From NCBI GenBank assembly GCA_017437755.1, contig JAFRXI010000065.1:1-64000 (forward strand): a stretch of 64,000 bases of DNA. The letters are read 5' to 3'. The position numbers and the translations under genes were made by a program. The notes beneath the pieces are model-generated. The model was not told the DNA's origin and did not search any database. It worked only from the letters and a program-made list of their open reading frames with translations. Each line of letters begins with the position of its first letter. Within the stretch, counting starts at the first letter, position 1. Positions 4,101 to 19,634 of this stretch are shown here, piece after piece. The DNA is from Bacteroidales bacterium. Lineage in GTDB: Bacteria > Bacteroidota > Bacteroidia > Bacteroidales > UBA932.

Positions 4101-4144
4101 CAAAAATAGCCTATATGAGAAATACTCTTGTGGCGGATTCCACC
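4101..4144 (-). promoter_or_regulatory. Promoter with palindromic operator, copy A
   Basis: On the minus strand the core GGTGGAATCCGCCAC (4144-4130) is followed after exactly 21 bases by TATTTTTG (4108-4101), a match to the Bacteroidota -7 box TAnnTTTG, and after a further 19 bases by the start codon of the beta-barrel gene. The core has GTGG/CCAC half-sites, extended here to TGTGG and CCACA. No TTG -33 element is present; the palindrome takes its place. Copy B upstream of 9987 has the same 21-base spacing. An activator or repressor site is inferred. Confidence 0.7.
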
Positions 4145-4177
4145 ACAGGACCCGTTTATCGCGTACGTCCTTGCCCG

Positions 4178-4765
4178 TCAGTGATAAAACAGGAATCCTA
4201 CGTACACATGGGGGCCGTGGGGAAGGAGACTTGATTGACTCAGTGCACATAGATAGTCCAGCTTGAGGGTCAAGTGCATCGGACCGGAAACAATGAAATC
4301 GCATCCCACAAAAGGGTCGACAGCCATGAAGCCTTGTTTATGATAACGGGTTCCGTCTATGGGAGCCCAATCCGATGTCGGCGCCTCCATCATCAAAAGG
4401 GTCGTCATCGACCCGCCCCCCAGGGTCAGGCCGGCATAAGGCTGGAATCGGCCTATAACCGTATAGGTATCGGCCAGTAAGCCGCCCCATCCATACTTAA
4501 GGTAACTGCCATTACTCAGCTGGCTCAGATTGGACACATAACCTTCGCTGCCCACACGGAAATGCTCCCCAAGATGAAGCCGGATAACACCGCCTATCCC
4601 AAATGGGGCGCCCTTTGCCTGATAGCTTATCGCATCCAGCATACCGGAAAGGTATCCGCTGTGAACCATCATTCCCCCGTCAAAGCCGCGAAGAATCTTC
4701 TTCTGCTGTGCCGTAGCGGTCACTGCAAGCAGCAGGCAGAGTGAAGCCGTAATCAACCTTTTCAT
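4178..4765 (-). CDS. Outer-membrane beta-barrel protein
   Basis: Reading from ATG 4765 gives a 195-residue protein with a good signal peptide (MKRLITASLCLLLAVTATAQ) and a beta-barrel-like body rich in Gly and aromatic residues, ending in the strand HVYVGFLFYH. An in-frame ATG at 4849 would add 28 residues (MNKKLLYCIAAAIWGI and so on); that stretch looks like the start of another small membrane protein, so I prefer 4765. A TATTTTTG box lies upstream of the 4849 start on the same strand. The gene is separated from the next operon by about 100 bases, which hold palindrome copy A. Function unknown. Confidence 0.65.
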   Translation of the reverse strand: MKRLITASLCLLLAVTATAQQKKILRGFDGGMMVHSGYLSGMLDAISYQAKGAPFGIGGVIRLHLGEHFRVGSEGYVSNLSQLSNGSYLKYGWGGLLADTYTVIGRFQPYAGLTLGGGSMTTLLMMEAPTSDWAPIDGTRYHKQGFMAVDPFVGCDFIVSGPMHLTLKLDYLCALSQSSLLPHGPHVYVGFLFYH

Positions 4766-4917
4766 ACCTAAAATCTGTAATAGTGCCCTCCAGTACGATC
4801 GGATGCCCCAGATAGCCGCTGCGATGCAGTATAGGAGTTTCTTGTTCATACCGAGCTTTTAATGGCAGCAAAGTTCGGCATAACGGACAAAAATATTTAG
4901 GACGGGCAGGAGATTAA

Positions 4918-5433
4918 TTAGGATTATCCATGCATCTTCTTACGAAAGGCCGCATTGTCCGCATCATCTGTGACAGCAATACAGATTGCAGCCGTACCCT
5001 TTACTATAATGACGAAGGATTGCTTGCCTGTTCCGAGGGCACTGCCAGGACGGGCGACGGAACTCTTGTGACCAGCGAGTACTTTGTCTTCACCTGGGAA
5101 GACGGCAATGTTGTCAAGACCATCCGCCAGACGATAAAAGACGGCAACATCACCGAAGAAACCGAATACAACTACGAATACAGCACTGCCGCCAACCCTC
5201 TGCATGGTTTCATCTTCCTCATCCATTCCAACAGCGGCATCATATTCGACTACGAGGGTATCGACGCACTGAGCAAGAACCTGCCGTCGCGCATTACTTC
5301 TCAAAAACACAGATATGAATTCAGCTTCTCCGGCGAGCAAGTCAGTTCCGGCGAAAAGCATTTGATTGCGGACTCAAGTCCCATCTTGCGCATGACCACG
5401 GATTACAGCCTGGATTTCGAGTACCTGAAATAA
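4918..5433 (+). pseudogene. Fragment of a DUF4595-like exported protein
   Basis: An open frame on the plus strand, with its first ATG at 4930, encodes about 167 residues rich in Tyr, Asn and Gly (RTLYYNDEGLLACSEG, FTWEDGNVVKTI, YEYSTAANPLHGF). This pattern is typical of the C-terminal part of DUF4595-type lipoproteins of Bacteroidota. There is no signal peptide or lipobox, and a stop codon lies just upstream of 4918, so the 5' half of the gene appears to be lost. It is the only plus-strand gene among minus-strand neighbours. It could alternatively be a small intact cytoplasmic protein, but the family is normally exported. Confidence 0.5.
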
Positions 5434-5461
5434 GTGTACACGGGATCCTAATATTTCGCCA

Positions 5462-6916
5462 TCAAATCCGGATTGAAGCCTTCTTCACCCTTTTTGCCGA
5501 CGAAACGGCCCCGACAGGGCATACGAGCCGGCAGAGATGGCACCCGACGCATCTGGATCCTGTCAACTGGGGCTTCCGGGTTTCCTGGTTGAAGACGAGG
5601 GCCTGGTGGCCGCCGTCTGAGCAGGAAATGACACATCTGCCGCAGCCTATACACCTGGAAGTGTCAAACTTTGGATATACGATGGTACTGCGGTCAAGGT
5701 CGGCGGGAAGGCGGAAGGAGGGCAGAAGCTCTCCAACAAGGTCCGAGAGATGCTCGATGCCCCTGTCTGCCATATAGTTCTGAAGGCCTAGGGTCAGGTC
5801 CTCTATGATGCGGTAGCCGTACTGCATGACAGCCGTGCATACCTGAACATTACGGCAACCGAGCCGGATGAACTCCAGGGCGTCATGCCAGGTCTCAATG
5901 CCTCCCACGCCGCTGTACTGGGTGTTTTTCATCATGGGGTTCAGTACCATGGAAAGGATATGCCGCAGTGCTATGGGTTTCACGGCCCTGCCGGAATAAC
6001 CCGACCCGGTCTGGTAGCCGCTCACCTCGGATCCGTCTCCCATCGTGATGCTCTTGATGGTGTTGATTGCGGATATCGCATCAGCCCCGGCAAAGTATGC
6101 ACCCATTGCCGGTCCGGAGATGTGGGTGATATTGGGAGTCATCTTGGGGATGACGGGGATTGAAACGCTGCGCTTCACGTAGGCGGTGAAGAATGTGACC
6201 AGTTCAGAGTCCTGTCCCACGTCTGAACCCATACCCGACTCTCGCATCTGGGGGCATGAAAAATTCAGTTCCACGGCATCACAGCCGGCTTCTTCCGCCA
6301 TTTTGGCAAGCACCGTCCACTCCTCTTCCGTCTTTCCCATGATGGAGGCTATGATAACCTTGGACGGGTAATTCCGCTTCAGGCGCCTGAGGATATCGAA
6401 GTCCATCTCCACGGTATTCTCGCTGAGCTGCTCCATGTTGCGGAATCCATAGAAATCTCCCCTCTTCCCGTTGCCGTAAACGGCGTCGAAACGCGGAGAC
6501 ACCTCATTGATTTCCTGCATGCAGATGGTTTTGTAAAACACACCGCCCCATCCGTCTTCAAAAGCCCGTGCAACCATCTCATAGTTGGTACATACGGCCG
6601 ATGAAGCCAGGAAGAAGGGATTCTCACAGCGGATGCCGCAAAAGTCAATCTCAAGGCTGGGAAGCGGCCTTGCAGGCGCTTCAGGGAGCTCTTTTACCAT
6701 CTCGCGGATGCGGATGGGGAAGTCGTAGTGGATGCAGGCTTTCCCTGCCGCTTCCAGATCCTCCTCGGTGCAGTCCTCCACCCACTTGCGGGCGATGGCC
6801 TGGTTGCCGAAACGGATGGCCCGGACAGCTCTGGCAGGGTCTCCACCTCTGCAGGCTCTGCTGCAGGGCGCATCGGCGCAAAGCAGGCAGCGTGAGGCTT
6901 CTTCAAGTATATGCAT
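5462..6916 (-). CDS. preA: PreA-like dihydropyrimidine dehydrogenase with extra N-terminal Fe-S segment
   Basis: The 484-residue protein has three parts. Residues 1-90 contain CLLCADAPCSRAC, the N-terminal iron-sulfur motif otherwise found in PreT and the N-terminus of eukaryotic dihydropyrimidine dehydrogenase. Residues of about 95-410 are a dihydroorotate-dehydrogenase-like FMN barrel (ELNFSCPQMRESGMG, KMTPNITHI, GVGGIETWHDALEFI). The C-terminus carries two 4Fe-4S motifs (CIGCGRCVISC and CVGCHLCRLVCP). The family reduces uracil and thymine with NAD(P)H. No preT or other pyrimidine gene is adjacent, so the electron-input partner is not local. Where animal enzymes have a catalytic Cys in ACGQ, this one reads DVGQ; the consequence is uncertain. 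Confidence 0.85.
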   Translation of the reverse strand: MHILEEASRCLLCADAPCSRACRGGDPARAVRAIRFGNQAIARKWVEDCTEEDLEAAGKACIHYDFPIRIREMVKELPEAPARPLPSLEIDFCGIRCENPFFLASSAVCTNYEMVARAFEDGWGGVFYKTICMQEINEVSPRFDAVYGNGKRGDFYGFRNMEQLSENTVEMDFDILRRLKRNYPSKVIIASIMGKTEEEWTVLAKMAEEAGCDAVELNFSCPQMRESGMGSDVGQDSELVTFFTAYVKRSVSIPVIPKMTPNITHISGPAMGAYFAGADAISAINTIKSITMGDGSEVSGYQTGSGYSGRAVKPIALRHILSMVLNPMMKNTQYSGVGGIETWHDALEFIRLGCRNVQVCTAVMQYGYRIIEDLTLGLQNYMADRGIEHLSDLVGELLPSFRLPADLDRSTIVYPKFDTSRCIGCGRCVISCSDGGHQALVFNQETRKPQLTGSRCVGCHLCRLVCPVGAVSSAKRVKKASIRI

Positions 6917-7083
6917 AATCTTCTATAATTCAACCCTTTCTGCGAAGTTAGGAAAAAAGATTCACTTAGAAGCCATAATTATGCATATTTATCCGGACAA
7001 TGTGCCCGCCGCCTGTGGCATGCGGCAGGATACACGGTCACCGGCGATACTGCCATATCAGCCAGGGGCACAAATCGTTAAAG

Positions 7084-7120
7084 TGCTCCTACCGTCCCAA
7101 AAATATGGACGATAGGAGCA
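7084..7120 (-). terminator. Hairpin after the 9987-7148 operon
   Basis: TGCTCCTACCGTCC (7084-7097) and GGACGATAGGAGCA (7107-7120) form a 14-bp stem with one G-U or mismatch and a nine-base A/T loop. It lies 28 bases after the stop of the gene ending at 7148. There is only a short T run on the minus strand, so it is a plausible but imperfect intrinsic terminator. The rest of the 231-base gap before preA shows nothing else I can name. Confidence 0.55.
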
Positions 7121-7147
7121 TTCTGGGGGGCGTAGCAGTGAGTTGCT

Positions 7148-7825
7148 TCAGTCGTTGTAGATAATCTTCTCGATTTTGTACCGGGTAGAAAGGGTGCCGG
7201 TGTCGTAATGGCCGTTCACGCTGATTCCCAGAAGGGGATCGTGGATGCGGTTCCCGGGCAGGCCGCTGCGGAGCACCTTGAGCCGGGGAGTGCCGTACTT
7301 CCCTTCCTTCTCCCAATAGATTATGGTGAAGTCGTGGTCCACGTTGCTCTGGTTGGTCATGTTCAGTTCCAGGTACCAGTCCTTGTCTCCGGGAACAGGA
7401 TAGTGGCGCTCGAATGTGCAGCCGGGAGGGAATTTGTTCACTATGCCCGCATCACATTCGTCAATGACGTCGGGGGCCACCGGATCCGGCTGCAGCTCAT
7501 AGGTGTCAACTGGAGCGGAAGCGCTTGAGCGGCTGTCTTCCAGATAGTCCAGGGCGCTGAAGAGCATCGGGGTAAGGATTCCGAAGGCGAGACCCAACGC
7601 ACTGCTTCCGCCGCCCCGGGATGCAGAACTGGCAGCGCTGACGGCGCGCGCTGCCGGAATCACGATGCGATGGTCGCCGGTGGGCTTTGAAAACTTCTGG
7701 CCGCTGATTTCTTCCAGCTGGCCAAGGGCCGAGGTGGCCTTTGTTCCGGTGTCGAATTTTGACTGCGCTCCGGCCGCCAGGGAAAGGACGGCAAACAGCG
7801 CTATTGCGAAAAACTTTTTCATCAT
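7148..7825 (-). CDS. Secreted protein of the FDTG/SALGQLEE family (second copy)
   Basis: A 225-residue protein with a signal peptide (MMKKFFAIALFAVLSLAAGAQ), the conserved block FDTGTKATSALGQLEEISG, an Ala/Ser/Gly-rich stretch at about 55-80 that may be a weakly hydrophobic segment (SALGLAFGILTPML), and a C-terminal beta-rich domain (CTFERHYPVPGDKDWYLELN to STRYKIEKIIYND). It is the paralogue of the protein at 2628-3452: the same position of the conserved block and a similar last strand, with a divergent middle. It overlaps the upstream WG-repeat gene by four bases and is the last gene of the operon starting at 9987. Confidence 0.7.
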   Translation of the reverse strand: MMKKFFAIALFAVLSLAAGAQSKFDTGTKATSALGQLEEISGQKFSKPTGDHRIVIPAARAVSAASSASRGGGSSALGLAFGILTPMLFSALDYLEDSRSSASAPVDTYELQPDPVAPDVIDECDAGIVNKFPPGCTFERHYPVPGDKDWYLELNMTNQSNVDHDFTIIYWEKEGKYGTPRLKVLRSGLPGNRIHDPLLGISVNGHYDTGTLSTRYKIEKIIYND

Positions 7826-9327
7826 TGTATCAGGTCAAGGTCCTTGAGCGAAGGCTGGGAACAGTCCCGCGCGGCGGGGTTGTCAAAGCGGAAAGTCTTC
7901 CCTTCCGCCGTAGTGAAAGTAATGCTTCTGAGTGAAAGCATATCGTTATGTATGAAGTACTTGGCCGTTGCGAGGGCCTCGGATGAGATGCTGTCGAATT
8001 CTGCCTTGAAAAGGGGGGCATCGGAGCGGGGAACCCGGATTTTGTAAGTGTCATGCAGGATTTTGTCCACGGAGAAAATGAAGGTCTCCTCTTCGGCATC
8101 GTAGCGGCTGAGGATAAGCTTGGCGTCCTTCCCTATCATGGCCGACACGAAAGCCCTCTCTGCCGCCGGCATCAGCGAGGCGATATATCCCTCCGTCTTG
8201 GAAGGATCCCTGCGGCGGGCCTCAAAGTCGGCGGCGGACTCAAATTCTCCCTTGGCCCAGAGTCTATAGTTGTTCCAGGTAAAGACGGAGAAGGAGTTCC
8301 GGGGATAGAACATCACCAGCAGGTCGAACATATCCTTATCTTTCATAAAGGGAATCAGCTCGTGACCTTTGTGGTTAAGCAGGGCGCGCTCGTTTCCACG
8401 TCCTGCGACGATGGCGAAGGGAAGACGCAGGTTCCCGCTCACGTGAGCGTTGAAACTGTAAGGCGACAGGCCGTCGTAGTCTTCCGGAAGGATTTGCCGG
8501 CCGCTGGTTTCCATCATCCCCCACTTGCTCCCGGACTTGCGGTAGCACCAGGTGTCCGGGGCTGTGGGCCAATATGACAATCCGTCATAGACAGGAGGAA
8601 GGGCTTCGACGCCATTGTCGCCCCTGACGCCCCAGAGGCCCCCTTTGTTCACATAGAGCCAGTTGGCGTCGGCCCATTTCCCGCCCCACTGACGCAGCGA
8701 GGCCGTCAGGAAGAGGGTGTCGTACTGGATGGGAACCACAACCCGGGCGTCCGAGGCCATAGCGCCCCACTTTCCGCCGGTCTTGACGGCAACCACATCG
8801 CCGTGGGCCCGGTAGATGACCGCATCGTCATAATGCTCCGGCGTGCCTTGGATGTGCTTTCCGCCCTCGTCTATCCAACTGAAGTAACCGTTCTTGTCCC
8901 GCACCAGCAGTTGGGCTTTTGCGCCCTCGGCATGCCCGCAGGCGACGATTCTGCAGTTGTAGCCGCTGAGGGTCTGCTTCCATTTCCCACCCACCAGGCA
9001 GAGGGCGGAATACTTGTTCCCCTTGTTGTAGACGACCAGTCCGTCGGAGAGCCGCCACATGTCGTCGCAGCGCACCGGACCGAAGGCGAGCGTTGCGATA
9101 AAGTTCTTCTCCGCTTTTCTGATTTGGGCGATTCCGCACCAGATTTCGGGCGTGACACCCGGTATGGCCACATTCTTTTTCACGACGGTCCATCCCTCCT
9201 CCGCGGGAAGCGTGCTGCCTTCGCAGAGGCGCTTGAAATCCGCTCCTCCGCTCACAATCACGTCCTGGGCGGCCAGAGGCAGAATGCCCAGGACCAGAAA
9301 TAATGCCGTCAGGATAAAGCTACGCAT
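7822..9327 (-). CDS. Exported WG-repeat protein
   Basis: A 501-residue protein with a signal peptide (MRSFILTALFLVLGILPLAAQ) and several WG-type repeats in the middle, seen as GGKWKQTL, GGKWGAMASDARVVVPIQYD, GGLWGVRGDNGVEALPPVYD and GSKWGMMETSGRQILPEDYD. In this family each unit ends with an aromatic plus Asp, and the units probably stack as a beta-rich repeat domain. The C-terminal 170 residues, after FESAADFEARRRDPSKTEGY, form a separate uncharacterised domain. The substrate or partner is unknown. It lies six bases after the beta-barrel gene and overlaps the next gene, so it is the middle member of the operon. Confidence 0.75.
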   Translation of the reverse strand: MRSFILTALFLVLGILPLAAQDVIVSGGADFKRLCEGSTLPAEEGWTVVKKNVAIPGVTPEIWCGIAQIRKAEKNFIATLAFGPVRCDDMWRLSDGLVVYNKGNKYSALCLVGGKWKQTLSGYNCRIVACGHAEGAKAQLLVRDKNGYFSWIDEGGKHIQGTPEHYDDAVIYRAHGDVVAVKTGGKWGAMASDARVVVPIQYDTLFLTASLRQWGGKWADANWLYVNKGGLWGVRGDNGVEALPPVYDGLSYWPTAPDTWCYRKSGSKWGMMETSGRQILPEDYDGLSPYSFNAHVSGNLRLPFAIVAGRGNERALLNHKGHELIPFMKDKDMFDLLVMFYPRNSFSVFTWNNYRLWAKGEFESAADFEARRRDPSKTEGYIASLMPAAERAFVSAMIGKDAKLILSRYDAEEETFIFSVDKILHDTYKIRVPRSDAPLFKAEFDSISSEALATAKYFIHNDMLSLRSITFTTAEGKTFRFDNPAARDCSQPSLKDLDLIQ

Positions 9328-9333
9328 GGGGCG

Positions 9334-9987
9334 CTACAGATTGATGTGGAAGTCCATGCCCACGGTCCAGCGGTGCAGCGGGCTGCCCTTGTCCGGGGCC
9401 AGGTTCAAAAGCCCGTAAGCGGCGGTAAGCTTGAAGGAGAAGCCCTTGGTACCCACCCCGCCACCGGCTTTCAGATAGACATTGAAGGGCTTGATACCCA
9501 GGTCTTTAATGGTATTCATCTTCATTCCCTTGCCGTTCTCGTCTTTAAACGGCCAGTCCTTATCCGTACTGGAGGTGGTCGATGCCAGGCAGTAGTCAAG
9601 AACGGGCCCGGCAAAGAAACTCCATCCTTTCCTGGTGCCATAGTTGAACGATACCGGAAGTTGCAGGTGGTGTTCCCGGATGGACGTGTCGTAGTTCCCC
9701 AGGGTGATCACATCCAGTTTGGTTTCATCGTACCAGGCGCCCATCGCCCCCCAGAGAATGTCGTATTTGTAGTTGATGCCCAAGTTGACCATACCGGACA
9801 TGCTCACGGGGATGCCGTAGATGATGCCGGCGTAAGGACCCATGCCGAAACCACCCGATTTGAATCCCTCCGGGACCTTGCGGCTCAGCATTTCAAAGTT
9901 CATCCCGAAATCAAAGCCCAGCTGGGCGGATGCCTTTGGGACCGCAAAAAGCAGGAATGCCAAAAAGAGAAGAAGTATCTTTTTCAT
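9334..9987 (-). CDS. Outer-membrane beta-barrel (porin-like) protein
   Basis: From ATG 9987 the protein has 217 residues with a signal peptide (MKKILLLFLAFLLFAVPKASAQ) and a body of alternating strands with aromatic girdles (GFKSGGFGMGPYAGIIYGIP, FNVYLKAGGGVGTKGFSFKL), ending in GMDFHINL. An in-frame upstream ATG exists at 10053, but it would place the promoter and palindrome inside the coding region, so 9987 is preferred. It is the first gene of the operon 9987-7148 and lies divergent to the histidine kinase at 10104. Together with 3449-4081 it is one of two small barrels that head operons with the same palindrome. Confidence 0.75.
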   Translation of the reverse strand: MKKILLLFLAFLLFAVPKASAQLGFDFGMNFEMLSRKVPEGFKSGGFGMGPYAGIIYGIPVSMSGMVNLGINYKYDILWGAMGAWYDETKLDVITLGNYDTSIREHHLQLPVSFNYGTRKGWSFFAGPVLDYCLASTTSSTDKDWPFKDENGKGMKMNTIKDLGIKPFNVYLKAGGGVGTKGFSFKLTAAYGLLNLAPDKGSPLHRWTVGMDFHINL

Positions 9988-10005: not shown

Positions 10006-10049
10006 CAAAAGTAAACCATATGAATGTCCCCCTTGTGGCGGATTCCACC
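10006..10049 (-). promoter_or_regulatory. Promoter with palindromic operator, copy B
   Basis: On the minus strand the core GGTGGAATCCGCCAC (10049-10035) sits inside a longer perfect palindrome, CTTGTGG-N9-CCACAAG. It is followed after 21 bases by TACTTTTG (10013-10006) and, 18 bases later, by the start codon at 9987. Core sequence and spacing are identical to copy A at 4101-4144. No -33 TTG is present. Confidence 0.7.
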
Positions 10050-10088
10050 ACAAGGGCTGATTTGCAAGGATTTTCCGGGAGGAAATGA

Positions 10089-10096
10089 TATCTTTG
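10089..10096 (+). promoter_or_regulatory. -7 box of the histidine kinase gene
   Basis: TATCTTTG fits the Bacteroidota consensus TAnnTTTG and ends only seven bases before the ATG at 10104, which implies a very short or absent 5' leader. A possible TTG at 10062-10064 lies 24 bases upstream, which is longer than usual. Confidence 0.5.
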
Positions 10097-10103: not shown

Positions 10104-12929
10104 ATGCGCCGTTTTGCCGTCATATTTTCCTTACTTGTGCTTGCAGCGCCTGGTCATGCCCGGTCGGACCCGGGCATGACCAGGCGTTTTGTGAACTATA
10201 ACGCGGCCGACGGCATGCCTTCCAATACCGTCTACGCCATTGTCCAGGATGCCCACGGAGTCCTCTGGACAGGCACCCGGAACGGGCTGGCCAGTTTTGA
10301 CGGCTCCCGATTCAGGAGCTGGAAGGAGTACGGAAGGGTGAATGCCCTTGCGGTGGATCGTGACGGCCGGCTGTGGGTCGGGACCTCGGAAGGGCTGACG
10401 GTGATGCCCGATCCGGTCGGGCATGACGCCCCGGATTCCGTCATTGCCGGCCCCGACCGGCAATCCTACGACACAGTCCGCGCCCTGTACGCCGACAAAG
10501 AAGGGTTTGTATGGGCCACCGTCGGTGACACCCTGCTGCTGAAACTCTCATACAAGGAGGGCATCCGGGAGGAGGCCCGCTGCTTCTACGACAAACGGGA
10601 CTCGGAGGGTGACTACCCCTATTACCAGATATACGAGGCCGGGGACGGGAAACTCTGGCTTGCGGGCCGCCTGGTCCACAACCAGTATGTGGGAGACAGG
10701 AATGCCCCGCACATCACGCTTCCCTCCTGGGAGGGCATGTACTGCAACGGAAGTTACTCTGAAACCGGCGGAAAACTCTACTCTTTTGAAGACCACACCT
10801 CCCTCCTGCACGCCTATGAGGCCGGCCGCCCCATTCCCCTGGGCCGACTGCCCGTAGCCCACGCCAGGCTGCTCACGGACCGCAGCGGAAACCTCTGGGC
10901 GGCGGGATCGTACGGCTTGGGCATCGTAGACACGGCTCATCCTGAGGATTCGGAGGTATTCCGCCACAAGGCCGATGACCCCTCCAGCCTTTCCTCCGGG
11001 GAACTCTACTGCATATTCCAGGACCGGCAGGGCAATATATGGGCGGGCGGCGACAACGGCCTCTCAGTGCTGTCTCCGGCCTTGCAGCAGGTGAAGACGG
11101 TCTCTGCCGCCCAGGTGTCGGCCATCATGGAGGACCATAGCGGCAAGCTCTGGATCGGGACCGCGGAAGAACGCGTGTCGGCCCTCTATGAAGACCGCGC
11201 CGGCAACGTTTACGTGGGCCTCTGGAACAATACCGGATGGGAGGTCTGGAAGGACGGGATAATGCTGCACAAGGACCGCCTCACCGGTCCTCTTCCCAAA
11301 GAGCAGACAGAAGCCCGGGACCTTGACGGGGCCAACTGGATATCGGACTTCCTGGAAGACAGCGAGGGCCGGTTCTGGGTCATATCCTGGGAAGGCGCAG
11401 GCATCAACGAATGGGACCGCCAGGCCAGGAAAAGCCTCCCTCCGCGGTGGCTGAGCCCCTTCAGATACCCTTCGCCGCAGGTTGACTCCAACATATACGT
11501 CAGTTCAAGGCTCGGAAGCAGGATCATCGAGGATGCCCAGGGCAATCTGGTCTATGCCACCACCCATGCCGGGCTCAATATAATAGACCGCAACACCGGC
11601 CTTGTCACAAAGTACTTCAAGGGCAATTCCTCCATCCCCGACGATTACGTCACCGACCTTTGCCTCACCCCGGACGGCACTGTCTGGGCCGCCACACGCA
11701 GCGGGCTGTGGAGATGCCCGGCTCCGGCCGGGCATGACAGGGAAGGAGCCGGGCATGATGGCGTCACTGACGGCCCCCACCGGCAATCTTTCCTGGACGG
11801 CATGCTGGTGCAGTCCGTGGAGGCCGACGGGAAAGGCCGCCTCTGGGCCGGAACGGAGGACGGGCTATGGTTCGTGGACACCGACGGCAGCACCGGCCGT
11901 GTCCCCAAAGAACTGGGATTCCCCTCCGACATCTACGGAGAGCGCGTTTCCTGCCACCTGAAAGGCGGCGCCCTGGCCTTTGGCGGCGCCGCCGGCGCAG
12001 CCTCTTTCCACCCCGACAGCCTTCTTTCCATCAAGGCAGTCGGAAACCTGCCGCTGGAGGGCCTTATCCGGCACCGGTACCGCCTGAACGGAGGAGACTG
12101 GACCGACGGACGCTTCACCGGGCTGCCGGAAAACATCCGCCCCGGGCGCTATCTCCTCCAGGAGCAGGATTCCGATATCTTCGGCCGATGGGACCGCGGC
12201 GAAATCCGGGAGCAGACCCTCCGCATGCCGCAGCCGCTGTGGCTCCGATGGCCCTTCCTGCTGCTGTATGCCCTCCTTCTTACGGCTGTTGCATGGACTG
12301 TACTCCGCCTGAGGGGAAGGCGCCTTCTGGTGAAAGAACTGGAGATGAGGAACCGCCTGTTCTCCATTATTTCCCACGACCTCCGGAATCCCATCTCCGG
12401 GAACCGGATGCTGACCCGCCAACTGCTGGAACGGGTCAGGGACCTGACACCAGCACAGCTGGAAGAAGGGCTTGTGCAGCTGGCACATTCGGCCGACAAT
12501 ACATCATCCCTGCTGGAAAACCTTCTTATTTGGTCCCTCAACCAGGAGGGGATGCTGGAGCCGGTGATGCGGGACGAGGACCTGACCTCCCTGGCGGCCG
12601 AAGCCATAGGCACCATCCCCGATGGAGCAGCCATCAAGGTAGATATTCCCTCCGGCCTTACCGTGCGCACCGACCGCAACATGCTCCTCACCGTCCTCAG
12701 GAACCTCCTGGACAACGCCGTGAAGGCCAGTCCGGAAAGCGTAGTCCTGCACTCCCGCGGGAAAAGGATTATCATTTCCGATAACGGTCCCGGACTCAGG
12801 GAGGGAGATGCCCGATGGGGGCACGGCCTCGGCCTTGTGATTACCCGCGAGCTACTGGATAAATTGGGAGCGGTAATGGAAATGCATAACCGGCCCGAAG
12901 GAGGCCTTCAAATAACCATCAACCTATGA
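10104..12929 (+). CDS. Propeller-type sensor histidine kinase
   Basis: The 941-residue product has a signal peptide, a long periplasmic region of two-component-regulator propeller repeats (DGMPSNTVYAIVQDAHGVLW, DRDGRLWVGTSEGLTV, DRQGNIWAGGDNGLSVLS), one membrane span at about residues 713-730 (WPFLLLYALLLTAVAW), a HisKA domain with the phosphoacceptor His in SIISHDLRNPISG, and an ATPase domain (LRNLLDNAVKAS, DNGPGL, GHGLGLV). It lacks receiver and DNA-binding domains of its own; those are supplied by the response regulator that overlaps its stop by four bases. It probably senses an envelope or glycan signal. Three palindromic genome repeats lie in frame inside the periplasmic part (10148, 10403, 11713), adding peptides such as APGHARSDPGMTRR. 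Confidence 0.9.
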   Translation: MRRFAVIFSLLVLAAPGHARSDPGMTRRFVNYNAADGMPSNTVYAIVQDAHGVLWTGTRNGLASFDGSRFRSWKEYGRVNALAVDRDGRLWVGTSEGLTVMPDPVGHDAPDSVIAGPDRQSYDTVRALYADKEGFVWATVGDTLLLKLSYKEGIREEARCFYDKRDSEGDYPYYQIYEAGDGKLWLAGRLVHNQYVGDRNAPHITLPSWEGMYCNGSYSETGGKLYSFEDHTSLLHAYEAGRPIPLGRLPVAHARLLTDRSGNLWAAGSYGLGIVDTAHPEDSEVFRHKADDPSSLSSGELYCIFQDRQGNIWAGGDNGLSVLSPALQQVKTVSAAQVSAIMEDHSGKLWIGTAEERVSALYEDRAGNVYVGLWNNTGWEVWKDGIMLHKDRLTGPLPKEQTEARDLDGANWISDFLEDSEGRFWVISWEGAGINEWDRQARKSLPPRWLSPFRYPSPQVDSNIYVSSRLGSRIIEDAQGNLVYATTHAGLNIIDRNTGLVTKYFKGNSSIPDDYVTDLCLTPDGTVWAATRSGLWRCPAPAGHDREGAGHDGVTDGPHRQSFLDGMLVQSVEADGKGRLWAGTEDGLWFVDTDGSTGRVPKELGFPSDIYGERVSCHLKGGALAFGGAAGAASFHPDSLLSIKAVGNLPLEGLIRHRYRLNGGDWTDGRFTGLPENIRPGRYLLQEQDSDIFGRWDRGEIREQTLRMPQPLWLRWPFLLLYALLLTAVAWTVLRLRGRRLLVKELEMRNRLFSIISHDLRNPISGNRMLTRQLLERVRDLTPAQLEEGLVQLAHSADNTSSLLENLLIWSLNQEGMLEPVMRDEDLTSLAAEAIGTIPDGAAIKVDIPSGLTVRTDRNMLLTVLRNLLDNAVKASPESVVLHSRGKRIIISDNGPGLREGDARWGHGLGLVITRELLDKLGAVMEMHNRPEGGLQITINL
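10148..10185. repeat. Perfect palindrome inside the kinase gene, unit 1
   Basis: Two perfect 16-base arms (GCCTGGTCATGCCCGG and its complement CCGGGCATGACCAGGC) enclose a six-base loop. The element lies at the signal-peptide cleavage region of the kinase and keeps the frame open. It belongs to the GTCATGCCCG repeat family that also occurs intergenically at 63781. Confidence 0.8.
10403..10465. repeat. Composite palindromic repeat inside the kinase gene, unit 2
   Basis: Two hairpins follow each other: ATGCCCGA...TCGGGCAT (10404-10424) and ATTGCCGG...CCGGCAAT (10443-10464). The same two-hairpin arrangement is found at 63781-63872. It is translated in frame as part of the sensor domain (GHDAPDSVIAGPDRQS), between two propeller repeats. 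Confidence 0.75.
11713..11788. repeat. Composite palindromic repeat inside the kinase gene, unit 3
   Basis: ATGCCCGGC (11714-11722) pairs with GCCGGGCAT (11727-11735). A further GCCGGGCATGATG follows, and the block ends in CACCGGCAATC. It is translated in frame as PAPAGHDREGAGHDGV between propeller repeats. The insertion respects the reading frame and codes for a Gly/His/Asp-rich loop. Confidence 0.7.
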
Positions 12930-13594
12930 TAAATGTCCTTCTCATAGAAGATTCCGCCGTGTTTGTGATGGGGCTCAAACTGGCCCTGGGCGCAAACCCA
13001 TCCTTTGGCAGTATCGATTCAGTGGCTTCTCCTGGGGCGGCGGTGGCCTACCTCAACGCCCACCCGGAAACCGACATTGCCGTAGTGGACATAACGCTGG
13101 AGTCGGAGACCGACGGCCTCACCCTGCTGGGGATCCTCCGGGATGCTTTCCCGCGGGTAAAGTCCCTGGTGCTCTCCCATTACAAGATCCCCGCGTATAT
13201 CATCAAGGCCATCACCTCCGGGGCCTGCGCCTATCTGGCCAAGGATTCCTCGCCGGAATCGATTGTGGATGCCGTCGGAGACGTTGCCGCCGGCAAATAC
13301 CTGTTCTTTGGGGAGACCATAGACTCGGGCAAGATTCTCCGCTCCTTTGGCGGCCAGGAGAACCTTCAGGCGCGAAAGCCGCAGGGGCTCACGCCCCGGG
13401 AACTGGAAGTGCTGCAGCTGACATCCTCCGGCTACAGCAATTCCCAGATCGCCTCGGCCCTTGAGATTTCCGTAAACACCGTAGACAGCTACAAAGAGCG
13501 CATCAAGGGGAAATTCGGCCTTGACAGCATTGTGGAATGCGTTGCCACCGCCGCCGTCAAGGGGATCGTTACGGTTGGCCGCCTTTCTTTCTGA
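12926..13594 (+). CDS. NarL/LuxR-type response regulator
   Basis: A 222-residue protein with an N-terminal receiver domain (acidic pair in LLIEDSA, phosphoacceptor Asp in DIAVVDITLES, Lys in AYLAKDSS) and a C-terminal LuxR helix-turn-helix (LTPRELEVLQLTSSGYSNSQ, ISVNTVDSYKERIKGKFGL). The ATG overlaps the kinase stop by four bases, so the two form a cognate pair. Targets cannot be read directly; the palindrome next to the divergent porin operon (copy B at 10035) is the obvious candidate. The last codons overlap a vestigial minus-strand fragment (13569-13619). Confidence 0.9.
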   Translation: MINVLLIEDSAVFVMGLKLALGANPSFGSIDSVASPGAAVAYLNAHPETDIAVVDITLESETDGLTLLGILRDAFPRVKSLVLSHYKIPAYIIKAITSGACAYLAKDSSPESIVDAVGDVAAGKYLFFGETIDSGKILRSFGGQENLQARKPQGLTPRELEVLQLTSSGYSNSQIASALEISVNTVDSYKERIKGKFGLDSIVECVATAAVKGIVTVGRLSF

Positions 13595-13644: not shown

Positions 13645-13648
13645 AGGC

Positions 13649-14963: not shown

Positions 14964-15524
14964 ATGGAAAAGAACACATGCAGGGTCGACCATATTGACG
15001 CAAGGGTGCCGCGGTGGGTGGTGGAGGCGTCTTTTTGCATTATGGTTGCGGCGGCCGTGAGCTGCGTAGCCCCGTTGCGGGACCATATCCTGACTCACGT
15101 TCCGTTGTTGAATGCAGTGCTGCAGACCGTTGGTATGACGGTCATGTATTATTGCATGATGAGGGGAATGAAGCCGCTTTACCATCCGCTGACGATCCTC
15201 TGGTGGGTGGCCATCGCCTTCTGTCTGTTCGGATTCGTGACCATGGTGCCCGGCCTCGAGGGTCTGGAATTCTCCGCCGCAACCGCCGCGTTCCTTCCGC
15301 TCATCTATCTGCCCCTCGGGATCCTTCTGTGCATCTGGTACCGCGGGCGCCTTGCGCAGGCTGGCATGCTTATGGTGTTAAGGGTGTTTGTCACCCTACT
15401 GCTTCCGGTGCTTTTCTTCCTGCCCGGATGGCTCGACCACGCTGCCGGGAATTACATCCTGGACGGCATCACGCTGGTGGTTGAAATCCTATACGCCTGG
15501 GCCCTCCGGAGGGTGCTGGTATAA
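14964..15524 (+). CDS. Polytopic membrane protein of unknown function
   Basis: From ATG 14964 the protein has 186 residues with about six hydrophobic segments (ASFCIMVAAAVSCV, LLNAVLQTVGMTVMYYCMM, ILWWVAIAFCLFGFVTMV, FLPLIYLPLGILLCIWY, VFVTLLLPVLFFLPG and the final one). I do not recognise the family. An upstream in-frame ATG at 14934 precedes a TACATTTG box (14939-14946), so the start at 14964, 17 bases after that box, is preferred. The gene is divergent to the membrane-anchored AraC regulator, which may control it, and is closed by the hairpin at 15527. Confidence 0.65.
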   Translation: MEKNTCRVDHIDARVPRWVVEASFCIMVAAAVSCVAPLRDHILTHVPLLNAVLQTVGMTVMYYCMMRGMKPLYHPLTILWWVAIAFCLFGFVTMVPGLEGLEFSAATAAFLPLIYLPLGILLCIWYRGRLAQAGMLMVLRVFVTLLLPVLFFLPGWLDHAAGNYILDGITLVVEILYAWALRRVLV

Positions 15525-15526
15525 AA

Positions 15527-15562
15527 CAATCAGGGGCCGCCCAAATGGGTGGCCCCTGATTG
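15527..15562. terminator. Strong bidirectional hairpin
   Basis: CAATCAGGGGCC and GGCCCCTGATTG form a 12-bp perfect outer stem, with an inner CCC/GGG pairing around AAAT. It lies between convergent genes ending at 15524 and 15589 and can stop transcription from both sides, although T runs are short. Confidence 0.85.
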
Positions 15563-15588
15563 GGATTTATTGTCCTTAGTAATTTGGA

Positions 15589-17025
15589 CTATTGATCGAC
15601 CGGAACAAGGCGTATCGGCATTCTGAAGTCTGTCATTTGATTATCCCATGCTTCATTAATATAGAAGCCCTGATCACCATTGGTATAATACCAGGTTGCA
15701 CGATCAACAATCTTTTCTCCGTACCAGAGATAAACTCCGTTTGAATGACGAGTACCCCACGGAAAGTCTACACCGGCCGAAGGCAAGATAAGGAAACTAC
15801 CCCCGTTTACGATAACGAAGCATTCTTTACCCTTGATGTCCATATGATATGTAGTTCCATCTAAGGTGCCTAAGTCACCACCGCCAATCCCACCAGTGTA
15901 TTTATTTCCGTCCGGGAGTTTCCAGCCCTCCGGCAACTCAAGGGCAACAGCTTCATAAAAATTATAGAAATTGCCGTTTTCCCAAGGCCACTTAGCTCCG
16001 TAGTTGACCGTGCTGAATACCTGATCAAATTGAGCCGGAGCTCCGTGTCCCTCTCCGAGTTCCCACCAACATTTCTTAGTGGCGTCGGTCTCCTTCAGAT
16101 TGCCGAGTTTGAGGGCGGCGTGAGGAGCGATCACATTTTTGATAGCAGTGAACTTGCCATAGGTATGTTCCGCGTCATCTATATTTTCCGCGTCAGATAG
16201 CAGGAACAGGTAACCATAACCACCGTCACCCCAAATCGGTATAGGGTTATCCTCTTCATCCCAATCGTACTCACCCGTTGGCATCTCAGCAACAATTGCT
16301 TGCTCCGCGTCGGAGTTCCCTACCAGCCCGCTGAAAAGGTATCCGGTTTCGGTTCCGTTATTATAAACGTAACCCGGCATGGGATCGCCGCAATTGCCCT
16401 CAACGGCGGAGACGGTGCCGTCAGCGTTCACTGAGCCAAAACCGAACGGCTTCACGGTATCGTTGAAGAGGGAATAGGTGTAAGTGCCGTCAGCGGTGGT
16501 GTTGCCGGCATCCGGATCCACCACATAGAACTGGACGGAGTTCGCCACGTTGTTCCTTACGGTCACGCTTGCCTGAACAACGGTGTTGTTGTCTTCATCG
16601 ACATCGGTTGTGTAGGAGACATTCTCGTCTGTCATGAAGTAAGACATGATGTCCTTGCCGCCCTTCTGGAATTTCCAGCCGTTATTGTATGCAGGTGTGA
16701 CGTTGCTCGCAAACGGCATGAAAACGGCGGTGAGTTTCTTGTCGGTGGCACCGGTGACGTCACTGTCGGAACCGGTGAGTGCGTATTCCCAACTGCCGCT
16801 GACCCTTGAAAGTTTCAGATAGGTCTGCGTGGAACCTTTAAAGAACAGGAACACTGCGTCGCCGTCCTCCCATGCATCCTTGGAGGCCTTGGTAAGAGGG
16901 TTCACGGTGATTTCAAATTTGATGGAAGATTTCTCTGCAACGGGGGCGTTGTTCTCCATCGGGGCTTCCTTTGTGCAGGCGGCTGCAGCAAGCAGGCCGC
17001 AAAGCATTGCCAATGATTTCTTCAT
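15589..17025 (-). CDS. Fimbrillin-like lipoprotein with FISUMP-like C-terminus
   Basis: From ATG 17025 the product has 478 residues: a lipoprotein signal (MKKSLAMLCGLLAAAACTKE), then a fimbrillin/Mfa-type N-terminal region (IKFEITVNPLTKASKDAWED, GDAVFLFFKG), a large middle beta-rich part, and a C-terminal block with FISUMP features (AVALELPEGWKLPDGNKY, MTDFRMPIRLVPVDQ). A surface or fimbrial role is inferred from the family. An AGGAAAGGAA stretch precedes the start, unusual for this phylum. Farther in-frame Met codons upstream overlap the small gene at 17045-17185 and are not needed. That mini-gene ends 20 bases upstream and is probably cotranscribed. Confidence 0.75.
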   Translation of the reverse strand: MKKSLAMLCGLLAAAACTKEAPMENNAPVAEKSSIKFEITVNPLTKASKDAWEDGDAVFLFFKGSTQTYLKLSRVSGSWEYALTGSDSDVTGATDKKLTAVFMPFASNVTPAYNNGWKFQKGGKDIMSYFMTDENVSYTTDVDEDNNTVVQASVTVRNNVANSVQFYVVDPDAGNTTADGTYTYSLFNDTVKPFGFGSVNADGTVSAVEGNCGDPMPGYVYNNGTETGYLFSGLVGNSDAEQAIVAEMPTGEYDWDEEDNPIPIWGDGGYGYLFLLSDAENIDDAEHTYGKFTAIKNVIAPHAALKLGNLKETDATKKCWWELGEGHGAPAQFDQVFSTVNYGAKWPWENGNFYNFYEAVALELPEGWKLPDGNKYTGGIGGGDLGTLDGTTYHMDIKGKECFVIVNGGSFLILPSAGVDFPWGTRHSNGVYLWYGEKIVDRATWYYTNGDQGFYINEAWDNQMTDFRMPIRLVPVDQ

Positions 17026-17044
17026 TTCCTTTCCTCCTTGTGTC

Positions 17045-17185
17045 TTAGAGTTCTTCTTCATCATTGAAGGGTTTTTCAAACTGGGGGTCCACTGGCGAGG
17101 CTGCAATCATTTCCTCGAGGCAGACGTCTATCGCTTCGCACTCCGGCTGGCAATAGGGCATCGGGCGTTTTTGTCCAAACATCAT
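17045..17185 (-). CDS. 46-residue mini-gene upstream of the fimbrillin-like lipoprotein
   Basis: The frame ATG 17185 (or 17182) to TAA 17045 encodes a 46-residue peptide starting MMFGQKRPMPYCQPECEAID and ending in the acidic tail FNDEEEL. It has no signal peptide or membrane segment. Short acidic-tailed peptides of this style (K/R-rich start, a PECE/E-I-D-V-type middle, acidic end) often precede surface lipoprotein genes in Bacteroidales. A second one, at 49404-49526, is placed in the same way before another lipoprotein in this window. Function unknown. Confidence 0.6.
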   Translation of the reverse strand: MMFGQKRPMPYCQPECEAIDVCLEEMIAASPVDPQFEKPFNDEEEL

Positions 17186-17338
17186 ATTTATATTATTAGT
17201 TTTTCAAAAAAAAGTTCGCGAATTTAGCCTTGCAAACCGAACAGGGCAACAATCACGGCAAATGCTGTGGCCAAATACGCCATTTCTTTATCGAATATGG
17301 CCAAAGCGGCCTGAATTCGGCGTCTATAATACGATTTT

Positions 17339-17364
17339 GGGCCCCTATTCGCCTATAGGGGCCC
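17339..17364. other. 10-bp perfect inverted repeat
   Basis: GGGCCCCTAT and ATAGGGGCCC flank a six-base loop in the 233-base gap between the mini-gene and the lipoprotein gene ending at 17419. There is no T run on either side, so it may be an operator, a processing site or a weak terminator. Confidence 0.5.
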
Positions 17365-17377
17365 ATTCCATGGGTGT

Positions 17378-17404
17378 GCGCCGCGCAAACCGGAGCGGCG
17401 CGGC
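17378..17404 (-). terminator. GC-rich hairpin after the 19561-17419 operon
   Basis: GCGCCGC (17378-17384) pairs with GCGGCGC (17395-17401), and the pairing can slide to GCCGCGC/GCGCGGC. It lies 15 bases past the stop at 17419. No T tract follows, so this is a low-confidence terminator. Confidence 0.4.
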
Positions 17405-17418
17405 ATGTGTACGGTCAG

Positions 17419-18021
17419 TTACTCGACGCCTCCAAGGATCTCCTTTACCAGGACACCGGCACCGATGTATTTTTCACCATAGTCCTTGACAAACTTGCGG
17501 AAATAGGCCTTGTGCCCGGCACTCACATAGAACCAGGTTCCGTCGTGCTGATAGAGATACATGACGGAAGCCGCCGGCTTATCCGTAACGGGAGCTTCCT
17601 TTGCCTCTTCCCCGCGCTGATTGTCAAACGTGCCTTTCTGATAATAGACCACCCCGTTGTCGGCCGCCTTCTTGACCGCCGCGTAAACTTTCTGGAGATA
17701 TGCCTGGACCTTTGCCGCAGGGATGGCGGTAATGTCGGGGCCGGTGTAGAAGAACGCCTCGTCCTTCATGGGTTTGGCCTCCGAGCGGGGATTTGTGGCC
17801 AGCTCGCTGAGTTCTATCGCAAAATCCGGGACCAGCTGGTCGCTTTCCAGGCCGGCAAAGGCGAATTTGTCGCCTATGCTCAGCTTGCCCTTGGTTGCGG
17901 GAGCCTCGGTCTTGTCGTTTTGGGCACCTTGGGAGGCCTTTTTCTGATTGTTGCCGCCGCATGACAGCACCATGGCCGTCACGGCGATGAGGAACAGTAC
18001 TTTTTTCATGGTATATTTCAT
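17419..18021 (-). CDS. Lipoprotein of unknown function
   Basis: A protein of about 200 residues with a lipoprotein signal (MKKVLFLIAVTAMVLSCGG). The mature part begins with a Gln/Lys/Ala-rich linker and continues as an alpha/beta domain (GDKFAFAGLESDQLVPDFAI, AAKVQAYLQKVYAAVKKAAD, KAYFRKFVKDYGEKYIGAGV). No family recognised. The ATG at 18021 overlaps the stop of the OmpA-type gene by four bases; an internal ATG at 18009 gives the cleaner signal peptide. It is the last gene of the operon controlled from the palindrome at 19620. Confidence 0.65.
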   Translation of the reverse strand: MKYTMKKVLFLIAVTAMVLSCGGNNQKKASQGAQNDKTEAPATKGKLSIGDKFAFAGLESDQLVPDFAIELSELATNPRSEAKPMKDEAFFYTGPDITAIPAAKVQAYLQKVYAAVKKAADNGVVYYQKGTFDNQRGEEAKEAPVTDKPAASVMYLYQHDGTWFYVSAGHKAYFRKFVKDYGEKYIGAGVLVKEILGGVE

Positions 18022-19331
18022 TTTTTGACAAACTCAACCCTGCGGTTCCTGGCGCGGCCCTCGTCGGTGCCGTTGGAGGCGATGGGCTCATGCGAACCCT
18101 TGCCCACCGGGGTAAGGCGGGTCTGGGCGATGCCCTGCTCCACCAGGGCGGCGACGATTGCCTCGGCACGTTTCTGCGAGAGCGGATCGTTAACCCTGTC
18201 GGAACCGGTGGCGTCGCAGTGGCCCTGGACCTCGAATTCCAGCCCGGGATTCTCCTGCATCAATTTGGCGATGCGGTTTATTTCAATCATGGCTTCGGGC
18301 TTGAGGTCGGCCTTTCCGGTCTCGAAGGTGATAGCGTAGGTGACTATCTTGCCATCGCTCATCAGCCGGTCATACAGCGGAACTGCACCCTTGGCCATGC
18401 GGATGTTCTTCAGGTAGAAACGGTCCTTCTCGTCACAGTTGGAGACGGACCGCAGGGCCATCCTGGTGGGACGCATCACATTTGGGAGATTGACCATCCG
18501 CACGCCATTCACATAGTACTTGAACGCCCGCTTGTTGAAAGAGGCGGCCACGTGGAGCCAGGCGTCGGGCTGTATGAGCGGGGCCAGGGTCTCTCCCTTG
18601 GCCCGTCCTTCCCGGGGATCCCCGGAAGGGGACAAGAAATTATAGATGACGTCCGCCTGGGATCCTTCCAGCGGCTCTTCATTGAAAGCCGGATTGAGCA
18701 TGACCACGACGATTTCGGAATTCTCTTCCGAGCTCAGGATCAGGTCGATATGGTCATTGTTGCTGGACCCGCCGGTGGCCGGGGACCATACGTCGAACTC
18801 GATGGTAAACTCTTCGGGAAGATAGTCCGCCTCCTTCATGAGCGGGGCGATGGTGCCGTACCAGCCGGAGAGCTTGATGACCTGCTCCCCGTTCAGTGTG
18901 ATTATTTCACACTCCTCTCCGCTCAGGAAATCCCAATGCAGCGGGAATTCGCCCACCTTTTCGTTCTCCACCGGATCATCAAAGAATATTTCGTCGCCGG
19001 GGACAAAGTCTGTCTTGGCGTAACCGGTCTGGACCTGCTTCCGCTCAGACGCCCGGTCGGAGCCGGACATGACGGCAGCTTCGGATCCGGGCATGACGGC
19101 AGCTTCAGTGCCGGGCATGACGGCGGCATCGGCCTCCTCGCCGGCCTTCTTCCGGCTTTTTTTGCCCGAATTGCCCTCGAGCATATCATTCACGCCTTTT
19201 TCAACCTTATTGCCTATCTTCTGCTCCAAGGCACTCTTGGCGCGCTCGCCCAGCCTTCCCAGAAGCCCCTGGGCCCCTGCATAACCGCTCAGAAGCGAGA
19301 GCATAGCGACGGAGATGAACAACTTTTTCAT
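18018..19331 (-). CDS. OmpA-family outer-membrane protein with insertion of 8-residue repeats
   Basis: The 437-residue protein has a signal peptide (MKKLFISVAMLSLLSGYAGA), a helical N-terminal segment (GRLGERAKSALEQKIGNKVE), three tandem copies of an eight-residue unit (about residues 68-91; EAAVMPGS type), a lectin/laminin-G-like central domain (about 115-320; ITLNGEQVIKLSGWYGTIAP, EFTIEFDVWSP) and a C-terminal OmpA peptidoglycan-binding domain (ITFETGKADLKPEAM, VQGHCDATGS, LSQKRAEAIVAALVEQGI, ARNRRVEFV). It probably links the outer membrane to the cell wall. It lies between a frame-shifted HTH gene and a lipoprotein gene in one operon. Confidence 0.8.
   Translation of the reverse strand: MKKLFISVAMLSLLSGYAGAQGLLGRLGERAKSALEQKIGNKVEKGVNDMLEGNSGKKSRKKAGEEADAAVMPGTEAAVMPGSEAAVMSGSDRASERKQVQTGYAKTDFVPGDEIFFDDPVENEKVGEFPLHWDFLSGEECEIITLNGEQVIKLSGWYGTIAPLMKEADYLPEEFTIEFDVWSPATGGSSNNDHIDLILSSEENSEIVVVMLNPAFNEEPLEGSQADVIYNFLSPSGDPREGRAKGETLAPLIQPDAWLHVAASFNKRAFKYYVNGVRMVNLPNVMRPTRMALRSVSNCDEKDRFYLKNIRMAKGAVPLYDRLMSDGKIVTYAITFETGKADLKPEAMIEINRIAKLMQENPGLEFEVQGHCDATGSDRVNDPLSQKRAEAIVAALVEQGIAQTRLTPVGKGSHEPIASNGTDEGRARNRRVEFVKK
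19059..19130. repeat. Three tandem 24-bp repeats within the OmpA gene
   Basis: Units at 19059-19082, 19083-19106 and 19107-19130 share the core CCGG[A/G]CATGACGGC[A/G]GC. Each adds exactly eight residues, so the frame is kept. The CCGGGCATGAC core is that of the palindromic GTCATGCCCG repeat family found in the kinase gene and at the right edge. Confidence 0.8.
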
Positions 19332-19346
19332 AATAATATACTGGTA

Positions 19347-19561
19347 TTAAATGATTCCGTTCTGAATTGCCTTCCTCACCACTTCGGCGGAAGTAGCGGC
19401 AGAAATTTGACCAAAAGCTGTTTACGGTACCACTTGACCGTTTCCGAACTCAGGCCGAGCTTTGCCGCAATCTGCGGGGTTGTCCTCCCGGCGGCAATTT
19501 CATGCAGGATGGACTTTTCCCGCCCTGTCAACTTGATGATATCTGCAGCATTATCTTCCAT
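19347..19561 (-). pseudogene. Stand-alone LuxR helix-turn-helix with a frameshift
   Basis: From ATG 19561 the frame encodes a LuxR-type DNA-binding domain (LTGREKSILHEIAAGRTTPQ, LGLSSETVKWYRKQLLVKF) and then runs into an unrelated tail, stopping at 19376. A single-base shift at the TTT after VKF restores the expected ending AATSAEVVRKAIQNGII and a stop at 19347. This matches the end of the TPR-LuxR protein next door (LLVKFDVANTAELVNLAREY). There is no receiver or sensor domain. The gene is first in the operon with the OmpA-like protein. Either it is a decayed regulator or the shift is programmed or a sequence error. Confidence 0.65.
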
Positions 19562-19619
19562 CTGTGGTTTGTTTTTGCAAATTTCGCAGATTTCATTGTC
19601 ATAAACACCACCCTTTCGG

Positions 19620-19634
19620 GTGGCTGATTCCACC
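19620..19634 (-). promoter_or_regulatory. Palindromic operator, copy C
   Basis: GGTGGAATCAGCCAC on the minus strand differs from copies A and B at one base. Outer bases form a longer imperfect palindrome (CCCTTAGGGTGG...CCACCCGAAAGGG). It lies 58 bases before the start at 19561, about one helical turn farther than in A and B. It is also in the divergent region facing the TPR-LuxR gene at 19709. The minus-strand -7 box here is weak (GAAATTTG). Confidence 0.6.

Follow-up and report, generated by a model that had tools for sequence, protein, structure and literature searches.

Propellers of the Reg_prop type are a sensor feature of the hybrid two-component systems (HTCS) of Bacteroides, the response regulator FimR of Porphyromonas gingivalis has a LuxR-type helix-turn-helix (HTH), and class II activators such as CRP are centred at about -41/-42, overlapping the sigma region-4 element. 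In HTCS, the kinase and an AraC-type regulator are united in one chain, and the motifs predicted for them, in susC/susD loci, have the form of direct repeats (PMC3878776, PMC11253607). The present analysis concerns a palindrome and a kinase-regulator pair in a Bacteroidales bacterium of the UBA932 lineage. The window is a stretch of 64,000 nucleotides (contig JAFRXI010000065.1, positions 1 to 64,000). The palindrome is very probably the operator of the NarL-type response regulator encoded next to it, which would activate operons of exported proteins (effector operons) in a class II manner and autoregulate the kinase operon.

The window kinase resembles an HTCS in its large sensor and its presumed control of neighbouring operons for exported proteins. 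In contrast to HTCS, the kinase and the NarL-type regulator with its GerE HTH are separate open reading frames (ORFs), and the motif is a palindrome and not a direct repeat. Family searches of the sampled targets, which are part of 87 first genes described below, revealed no susC/susD; in one genome (G034) a gene that by eye looks SusC-like is located beyond a degraded site that lacks the spacing. With NarL/FixJ operators and CRP-like class II sites the element shares a palindrome suited to a dimer, and its centre would likewise be near -42, over the -35/-33 contact of sigma, but it differs in the Bacteroidota TAnnTTTG promoter, in its odd length of 21 bp, and in serving a second, divergent promoter as well, from about -58 to -61. 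The pair FimS/FimR is similar in that a Bacteroidales kinase and a separate response regulator activate genes for surface proteins, and recombinant FimR shifted the mfa1 promoter (PMC1974823). The FimS model is the second-best NCBIfam match of the window kinase, with 69.6 bits far below the cut-off of 600. However, the targets of FimR are fimbriae, and the passages of the FimR source considered here contain neither an operator nor a spacing rule (PMC1974823). In the literature searched (titles and abstract openings, with subscription literature outside) no description of this system was found, and four 13-letter core strings retrieved only one unrelated paper on a human promoter.

The full element is an odd 21-bp palindrome, TTGTGGYGGAWTCCRCCACAA, symmetric about one central base pair. 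The first-pass annotation had reported a palindromic 15-mer at three minus-strand positions and had proposed a regulon of three operons. All three exact matches were found (4144-4130, 10049-10035, 19634-19620), and the first two sites are real, but the 15-mer is too short to describe the symmetric element. With up to 3 mismatches the 15-mer has 15 matches, two of which are the same palindromes read on the opposite strand, compared to a shuffle mean of 4.43 and a maximum of 13. In the whole assembly, a metagenome-assembled genome (MAG) of 84.9% completeness, it occurs exactly only at those three places; 34 further places have one or two mismatches, and every one of the 27 examined lies inside an ORF of at least 125 aa. 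Operator 1 occupies 4130-4146 of the minus strand (core GTGGTGGAATCCGCCAC; 4128-4148 in its 21-bp form), and 21 bases past it follows the -7 element of effector operon 1, TATTTTTG (4101-4108, minus). Operator 2 (10035-10051, minus; again core GTGGTGGAATCCGCCAC; 21-bp form 10033-10053) is common to two divergent promoters, namely, that of effector operon 2, with the -7 element TACTTTTG 21 bases past the operator (10006-10013, minus), and that of the kinase-regulator operon, with the -7 element TATCTTTG at a distance of 37 bases (10089-10096, plus) and the ATG 7 bases on. The kinase side of operator 2 had been missed before. The distance of exactly 21 bases given for sites 1 and 2 proved correct, as did the start codon about 18 bases later (19 and 18 bases past the -7 element) and the lack of a -33 TTG, as no TTG is present in either 21-base spacer. 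In its own genome the palindrome is combined with a promoter at sites 1 and 2 only, and the looser pattern GTGG-N9-CCAC-N20-22-TAnnTTTG again recovers only these two. Instead of three operons of exported proteins, this genome has two effector operons and the kinase-regulator operon itself.

The spacing was analyzed in 400 genomes of the genus, the own genome included (G numbers denote genomes, L numbers loci). The palindrome with at most one mismatch is present in 128 of the 400, and a reversed control matched in 9 rows. When it was combined with N19-23 and TAnnTTTG, 72 matches in 54 genomes were obtained, all 72 at exactly 21 bases; the reversed pattern did not match in the same 400 genomes. 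Scatter at random positions and a lack of conservation before orthologous operons, either of which would have counted against the first-pass proposal, were both examined, and both outcomes favour sites 1 and 2. Around spaced-motif sites and regulator homologues 79 regions were retrieved. For 92 distinct palindromes (at most one mismatch; 80 regions) a TAnnTTTG begins at 21 bases in 78 cases and at 37-40 bases in 48, and the other distances that occur up to 80 are represented by one or two cases each, at 0.06 expected per distance; three of the 92 have no TAnnTTTG within those distances. Most regions had been chosen via the spaced motif, therefore the peak at 21 is partly selected, but the peak at 37-40 is not. 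Among 85 distinct sites with spacing 21, which were picked by pattern so that the core information is partly given by construction, 12 of 17 core positions contain 1.7-2.0 bits and the outer AA 1.7 and 1.3 bits; the remainder of the 21-base spacer does not exceed 0.65 bits.

The two elements of the known Bacteroides promoter are a TTTG near -33 and a TAnnTTTG near -7 (PMC7366714), and in Flavobacterium TAnnTTTG was placed at -12 to -5 (PMC9723704). If the -7 box is taken as -12 to -5, the centre of the palindrome is at about -42 of the effector promoters and at about -58 to -61 of the kinase operon. Of the other promoters in the analyzed regions, 27% have a TTG whose end is 19-20 bases ahead of TAnnTTTG, and 55 of 157 have one that ends 17-22 bases ahead. 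A TTG near -33 was found in none of 69 promoters with the palindrome at 21 (Fisher p 1e-10 versus the other promoters) and in 3 of 44 kinase-side promoters (p 1e-4), 27 of which have a conserved CAAGG in its place. The earlier proposal of a palindrome that replaces the -33 element and has a dedicated regulator is strongly supported.

The identity of this regulator was approached by a motif-blind scan with the NarL-type regulator in one genome per species (84,980 species), which yielded 83 relatives, the best 80 of which correspond to 79 loci. In 68 loci (L177-L244) the regulator is 57-93% identical in the matched segment, three of these being only a C-terminal piece, and the other 11 listed loci are 29-51% identical or fragments at contig edges. 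The 68 loci are labelled Bacteroidales or Bacteroidia (one Prevotellaceae), and all named sources are ruminant. The region upstream of the kinase was readable in 55 of the 68, and it contains the palindrome with at most two mismatches in 49 of these 55, whereas of 1017 windows chosen at random in these loci only 4 contain it. As many of the MAGs are also among the G genomes, this is a motif-blind view and not an independent sample. The distance between the palindrome and the kinase TAnnTTTG is 37-40 bases in 48 of the 49 and 21 in the remaining one. Among 144 searched genomes of at least 92% completeness, some of them absent from the 400-genome draw, 25 besides the own genome contain the regulator. 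The strict spaced motif is present in 18 of these 25, and at this completeness it never occurred in a genome without the regulator. Within 249 genomes of the family (E<=1e-40) the regulator was found in the own genome, in one of the same genus and in four of other genera. One of the four, with 58% identity, has a perfect palindrome with spacings of 21 and 38 bases, two with 39% have no palindrome in the stretch examined, and the fourth, with 82%, is cut off ahead of the kinase start. A search of 247 genomes of the order matched the regulator in the own genome only. Of the candidates that had been named for reading the palindrome, the NarL-type regulator (12926) is favoured by this co-occurrence.

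The two sides of the palindrome differ in what they precede. In 47 of 52 kinase loci, an orthologue of the Reg_prop kinase gene 10104-12929 has its TAnnTTTG at a distance of 37-40 bases, and the NarL-type regulator follows the kinase wherever the contig permits. The other five comprise one locus with a spacing of 21, one contig edge, and three without the palindrome in the stretch examined, with a partial kinase in one of the three and a misplaced kinase start in another. In 44 of 49 loci (L177-L240; 10097-10106, plus, in the window) the distance from the palindrome to the kinase ATG is 52-55 bases, with the -7 box ending about 7 bases before the ATG, therefore the kinase mRNA is probably almost leaderless. 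A conserved GATTTGCAAGG block is situated between the palindrome and the kinase -7 box (10052-10088, plus). On the side with spacing 21, an ATG follows 16-21 bases past TAnnTTTG at 60 of 87 sites. A hydrophobic N-terminus, by a crude measure, is predicted for 86 of the 87 first proteins, compared to 502 of 786 long background ORFs, and the one exception is preceded by an imperfect -7 box; 35 of the 87 have a lipobox. The first genes form ten multi-member groups and ten singles, many of them unrelated to each other, and the singles include one kinase and one probably spurious gene. A directly divergent arrangement with the kinase was found at 40 of the 87 sites and a different one at 44, of which some are located behind an insertion; the last 3 are at contig edges. 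The spacing of 21 occurs on both sides in G267, and in G037 one palindrome with TAnnTTTG at 21 both ways lies between two effector operons. To the right of the kinase-side palindrome of G082 (L176) an apparent remnant of the operon 2 barrel gene, without promoter or signal peptide, looks like a trace of cargo loss.

These features are best accommodated by the following model, which is built on sequence comparison. The kinase would probably sense a signal through its periplasmic propeller, and a dimer of the NarL-type regulator, presumably in its phosphorylated state, would bind to the palindrome. At about -42 of the effector promoters, the dimer would cover the point at which sigma contacts the -33 TTG and would stand in for it, resulting in class II activation. 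Relative to the divergent kinase-regulator operon the operator is at about -58 to -61, from where it may mediate a class I-like autoregulation. The targets would be operons of exported outer-membrane, lipoprotein and WG-repeat proteins. Whether the regulator is an activator or a repressor had been left undecided by the first-pass annotation; activation fits better with the absent TTG and the fixed spacing. A repressor that blocks RNA polymerase over the promoter appears unlikely: an overlap with the -33 region would also permit steric repression, and autoregulation is common among repressors, but promoters without a -33 TTG should be weak unaided, and a base-exact spacing in all spaced matches is not needed for repression.

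Somewhat less probable still is that another protein binds to the palindrome, i.e., the TPR-LuxR protein (19709-20923), the short LuxR ORF or an unlinked factor. The former two have LuxR-type HTH domains and are nearby in the window, and had been named as candidates (19347, 19709), but this was not supported. The TPR-LuxR protein was rejected as the binder, as it has no match at E<=1e-40 in 5 of the 25 regulator-carrying genomes; its matches in relatives are on contigs other than that of the kinase-regulator pair or, in G375, on the same contig at a distance of 29 kb, and its homologues have a motif of their own. The palindrome, furthermore, stays with the kinase-regulator pair in relatives whose regulator is as little as 58% identical. 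It is very improbable that the palindrome is a repeat, a recombination site or an RNA hairpin and no operator. Copies do flank cassettes in G265, G382 and G188, with a 28-base exact direct repeat in the latter, but the distance to two promoters is fixed, and the palindrome is upstream of the expected start and thus not transcribed from these promoters. A repeat or mobile element as its main function was discarded in view of its near absence elsewhere in the genome and because the cassette gene of G265/G382 has homologues at nine further places, none of them with a palindrome (best 4-5 mismatches).

Several observations speak against the regulator as the reader of the palindrome and as an activator, or reduce the weight of the evidence. 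The genomes share ancestry, thus the counts are not independent, and the lack of the TTG is partly built in, the palindrome letters occupying most of that place. Six of the 55 regulator-selected loci (L196, L221, L230, L233, L235, L241) have no palindrome directly upstream of the kinase; of these, L196 has a perfect palindrome with spacing 21 farther upstream and L241 one with 3 mismatches and spacing 21 elsewhere. An exact effector-side TAnnTTTG at 21 is missing in 12 of the 49 palindrome-containing loci, and 7 of the 25 regulator-positive genomes lack the strict spaced motif. Five of these seven have a palindrome with at most two mismatches upstream of the kinase, G241 stops at a contig edge, and G063 has no palindrome upstream of the kinase and one with 3 mismatches and spacing 21 elsewhere. 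No convincing covariation between residues of the recognition helix and bases of the palindrome was detected in 50 rows; three loci that have TTTxDSY in the helix share an A at position 7, which is no more than suggestive, as G is found there in other loci of the TTT type. In G034, the cassette did not leave two working copies but destroyed the effector promoter; the broken -7 box is followed by an AAA ATPase gene, and no promoter accompanies the second palindrome.

Site 3 is a look-alike and was rejected as a member of the regulon. Its 17-mer, AGGGTGGAATCAGCCAC, has 3 mismatches and broken symmetry, and TAnnTTTG is absent at 21 and at 37-40 bases. It is not kept before TPR-LuxR homologues, where the best match to the 15-mer in the 200 bases upstream of 19 genes has 3-6 mismatches of 15. 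The examinations of scatter and of conservation both came out against its membership. The claim that each site precedes an operon of exported proteins holds for sites 1 and 2, but the minus side of site 3 precedes a LuxR-HTH ORF. Site 3 lies between, and overlaps with, two boxes of another motif, CCACCC-N4-GGG[T/G]GG, that do not belong to the regulon, CCACCCTTTCGGGTGG (19608-19623) and CCACCCTAAGGGGTTG (19630-19645), which together span 19608-19645 of the plus strand and are 50 and 72 bases from a TAnnTTTG. They are located between 19376-19561 (minus) and the TPR-LuxR gene (19709-20923, plus). The same motif or a close variant precedes 11 of 15 TPR-LuxR homologues (L257-L271, 49-63% identity), with a TAnnTTTG in nine of the 11 at 39 or 48-49 bases and in two at 22-23; four homologues of lower identity (38-42%) do not have it. 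The motif probably serves as the operator of the TPR-LuxR regulator. On its far side there is often an ORF that resembles the beginning of the window OmpA gene, or a short LuxR-HTH ORF. The short LuxR-HTH ORF of the window (19376-19561, minus, 61 aa) ends early compared to the ORFs of relatives and was possibly shortened by a frameshift.

Effector operon 1 (182-4081, minus) lies behind operator 1 and starts with a barrel-like protein (3449-4081), which is similar to the OMP_b-brl_2 barrel of operon 2 (E=2e-5); it is followed by 2628-3452, 1603-2631, 1115-1573, 637-1110, which has a lipobox by eye, and 182-640, all on the minus strand. In G180 (L072) the first four genes have homologues whose order is conserved and which are preceded by an operator with spacing 21. 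Effector operon 2 (7148-9987, minus), behind operator 2, encodes the OMP_b-brl_2 barrel (9334-9987), a WG-repeat protein (7822-9327) and a homologue of 2628-3452 (7148-7825; E=2e-6), also on the minus strand. The sensor histidine kinase (10104-12929, plus) consists of a Reg_prop propeller, HisKA and HATPase_c, and the NarL-type response regulator (12926-13594, plus), the proposed binder of the palindrome, of a receiver and a GerE HTH (Pfam matches Response_reg 1.9e-13 and GerE 3.5e-16). Its receiver motifs with the phospho-acceptor Asp, the conserved Ser/Thr and the Lys, VD[I][T/S]LE, LSHY and LAKDS, read from the commonest variants of 66 aligned regulators, are conserved, as are the HTH motifs. 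Among the sampled targets only WG repeats and OMP barrels exceeded the Pfam cut-offs; DnaJ-type zinc ribbon, PDZ/DUF4136 and Fib_succ matched below them, and many targets had no match in the family searches. NCBIfam gave just one sub-threshold barrel match for eight target proteins. The commonest target is a 506-aa lipoprotein.

Cassettes are present within the divergent region of three genomes, a YhcG/DUF1016 PDDEXK gene in G265 and G382 and a HepT-like gene with a second gene in G188, with the palindrome on either side, and each promoter retains an operator copy at its own spacing. The G188 copies constitute the 28-base repeat mentioned above; those of G382 differ at three core positions, therefore not every case is a simple duplication. 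The YhcG/DUF1016 PDDEXK genes (L063 2577-3986, L067 8492-9961, L287) resemble single-gene insertions. In G048 (L287) the DUF1016 homologue lies between 26-base exact direct repeats that are unrelated to the palindrome, which suggests a mobile cassette with long duplications; eight other DUF1016 homologues have no exact repeat of at least 11 bases within about 330 bases. Near the AAA ATPase gene of G034, a hairpin has arms like half a palindrome (CAGCGGAATC...GATTCCGCTG; L064 10545-10579).

The same spacer (21/21) is found ahead of the lipoprotein gene of G221, G289 and G125 as well as ahead of operon 1 of G180 and operon 2 of G265, and the leaders of these five promoters are identical at 18/18 positions, or 17/18 in G221. 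The three first genes behind them, encoding the lipoprotein, barrel 1 and barrel 2, are unrelated and come from different species, which suggests that genes may have been replaced behind a standing promoter. When first genes were compared in pairs, at least 17 spacer bases were shared by 15 of 3076 unrelated pairs (without a BLAST hit at 1e-6) versus 40 of 567 related pairs, therefore the strong cases stem from one cluster of relatives. It is tentatively proposed, as a possibility that we rate at somewhat below even, that a constant promoter module, consisting of the operator, the 21-base spacer, TAnnTTTG and a short leader, remains in place while unrelated operons of exported proteins are swapped behind it, and that foreign cassettes landing in the shared region can leave an operator on both sides, which would keep both promoters controlled.

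The regulator, operator, spacing rule and targets together represent a complete, testable regulon for a group of mostly ruminant-gut Bacteroidales that is represented here mainly by metagenome assemblies. It offers a clean case of possible activation on a Bacteroidota promoter, in which a dimer at one exact position would replace the -33 element. A search with the pattern can assign genes without a known function in related genomes to one signal. If the exchange of operons behind a constant module is true, one regulator would drive a species-specific, swappable surface coat.

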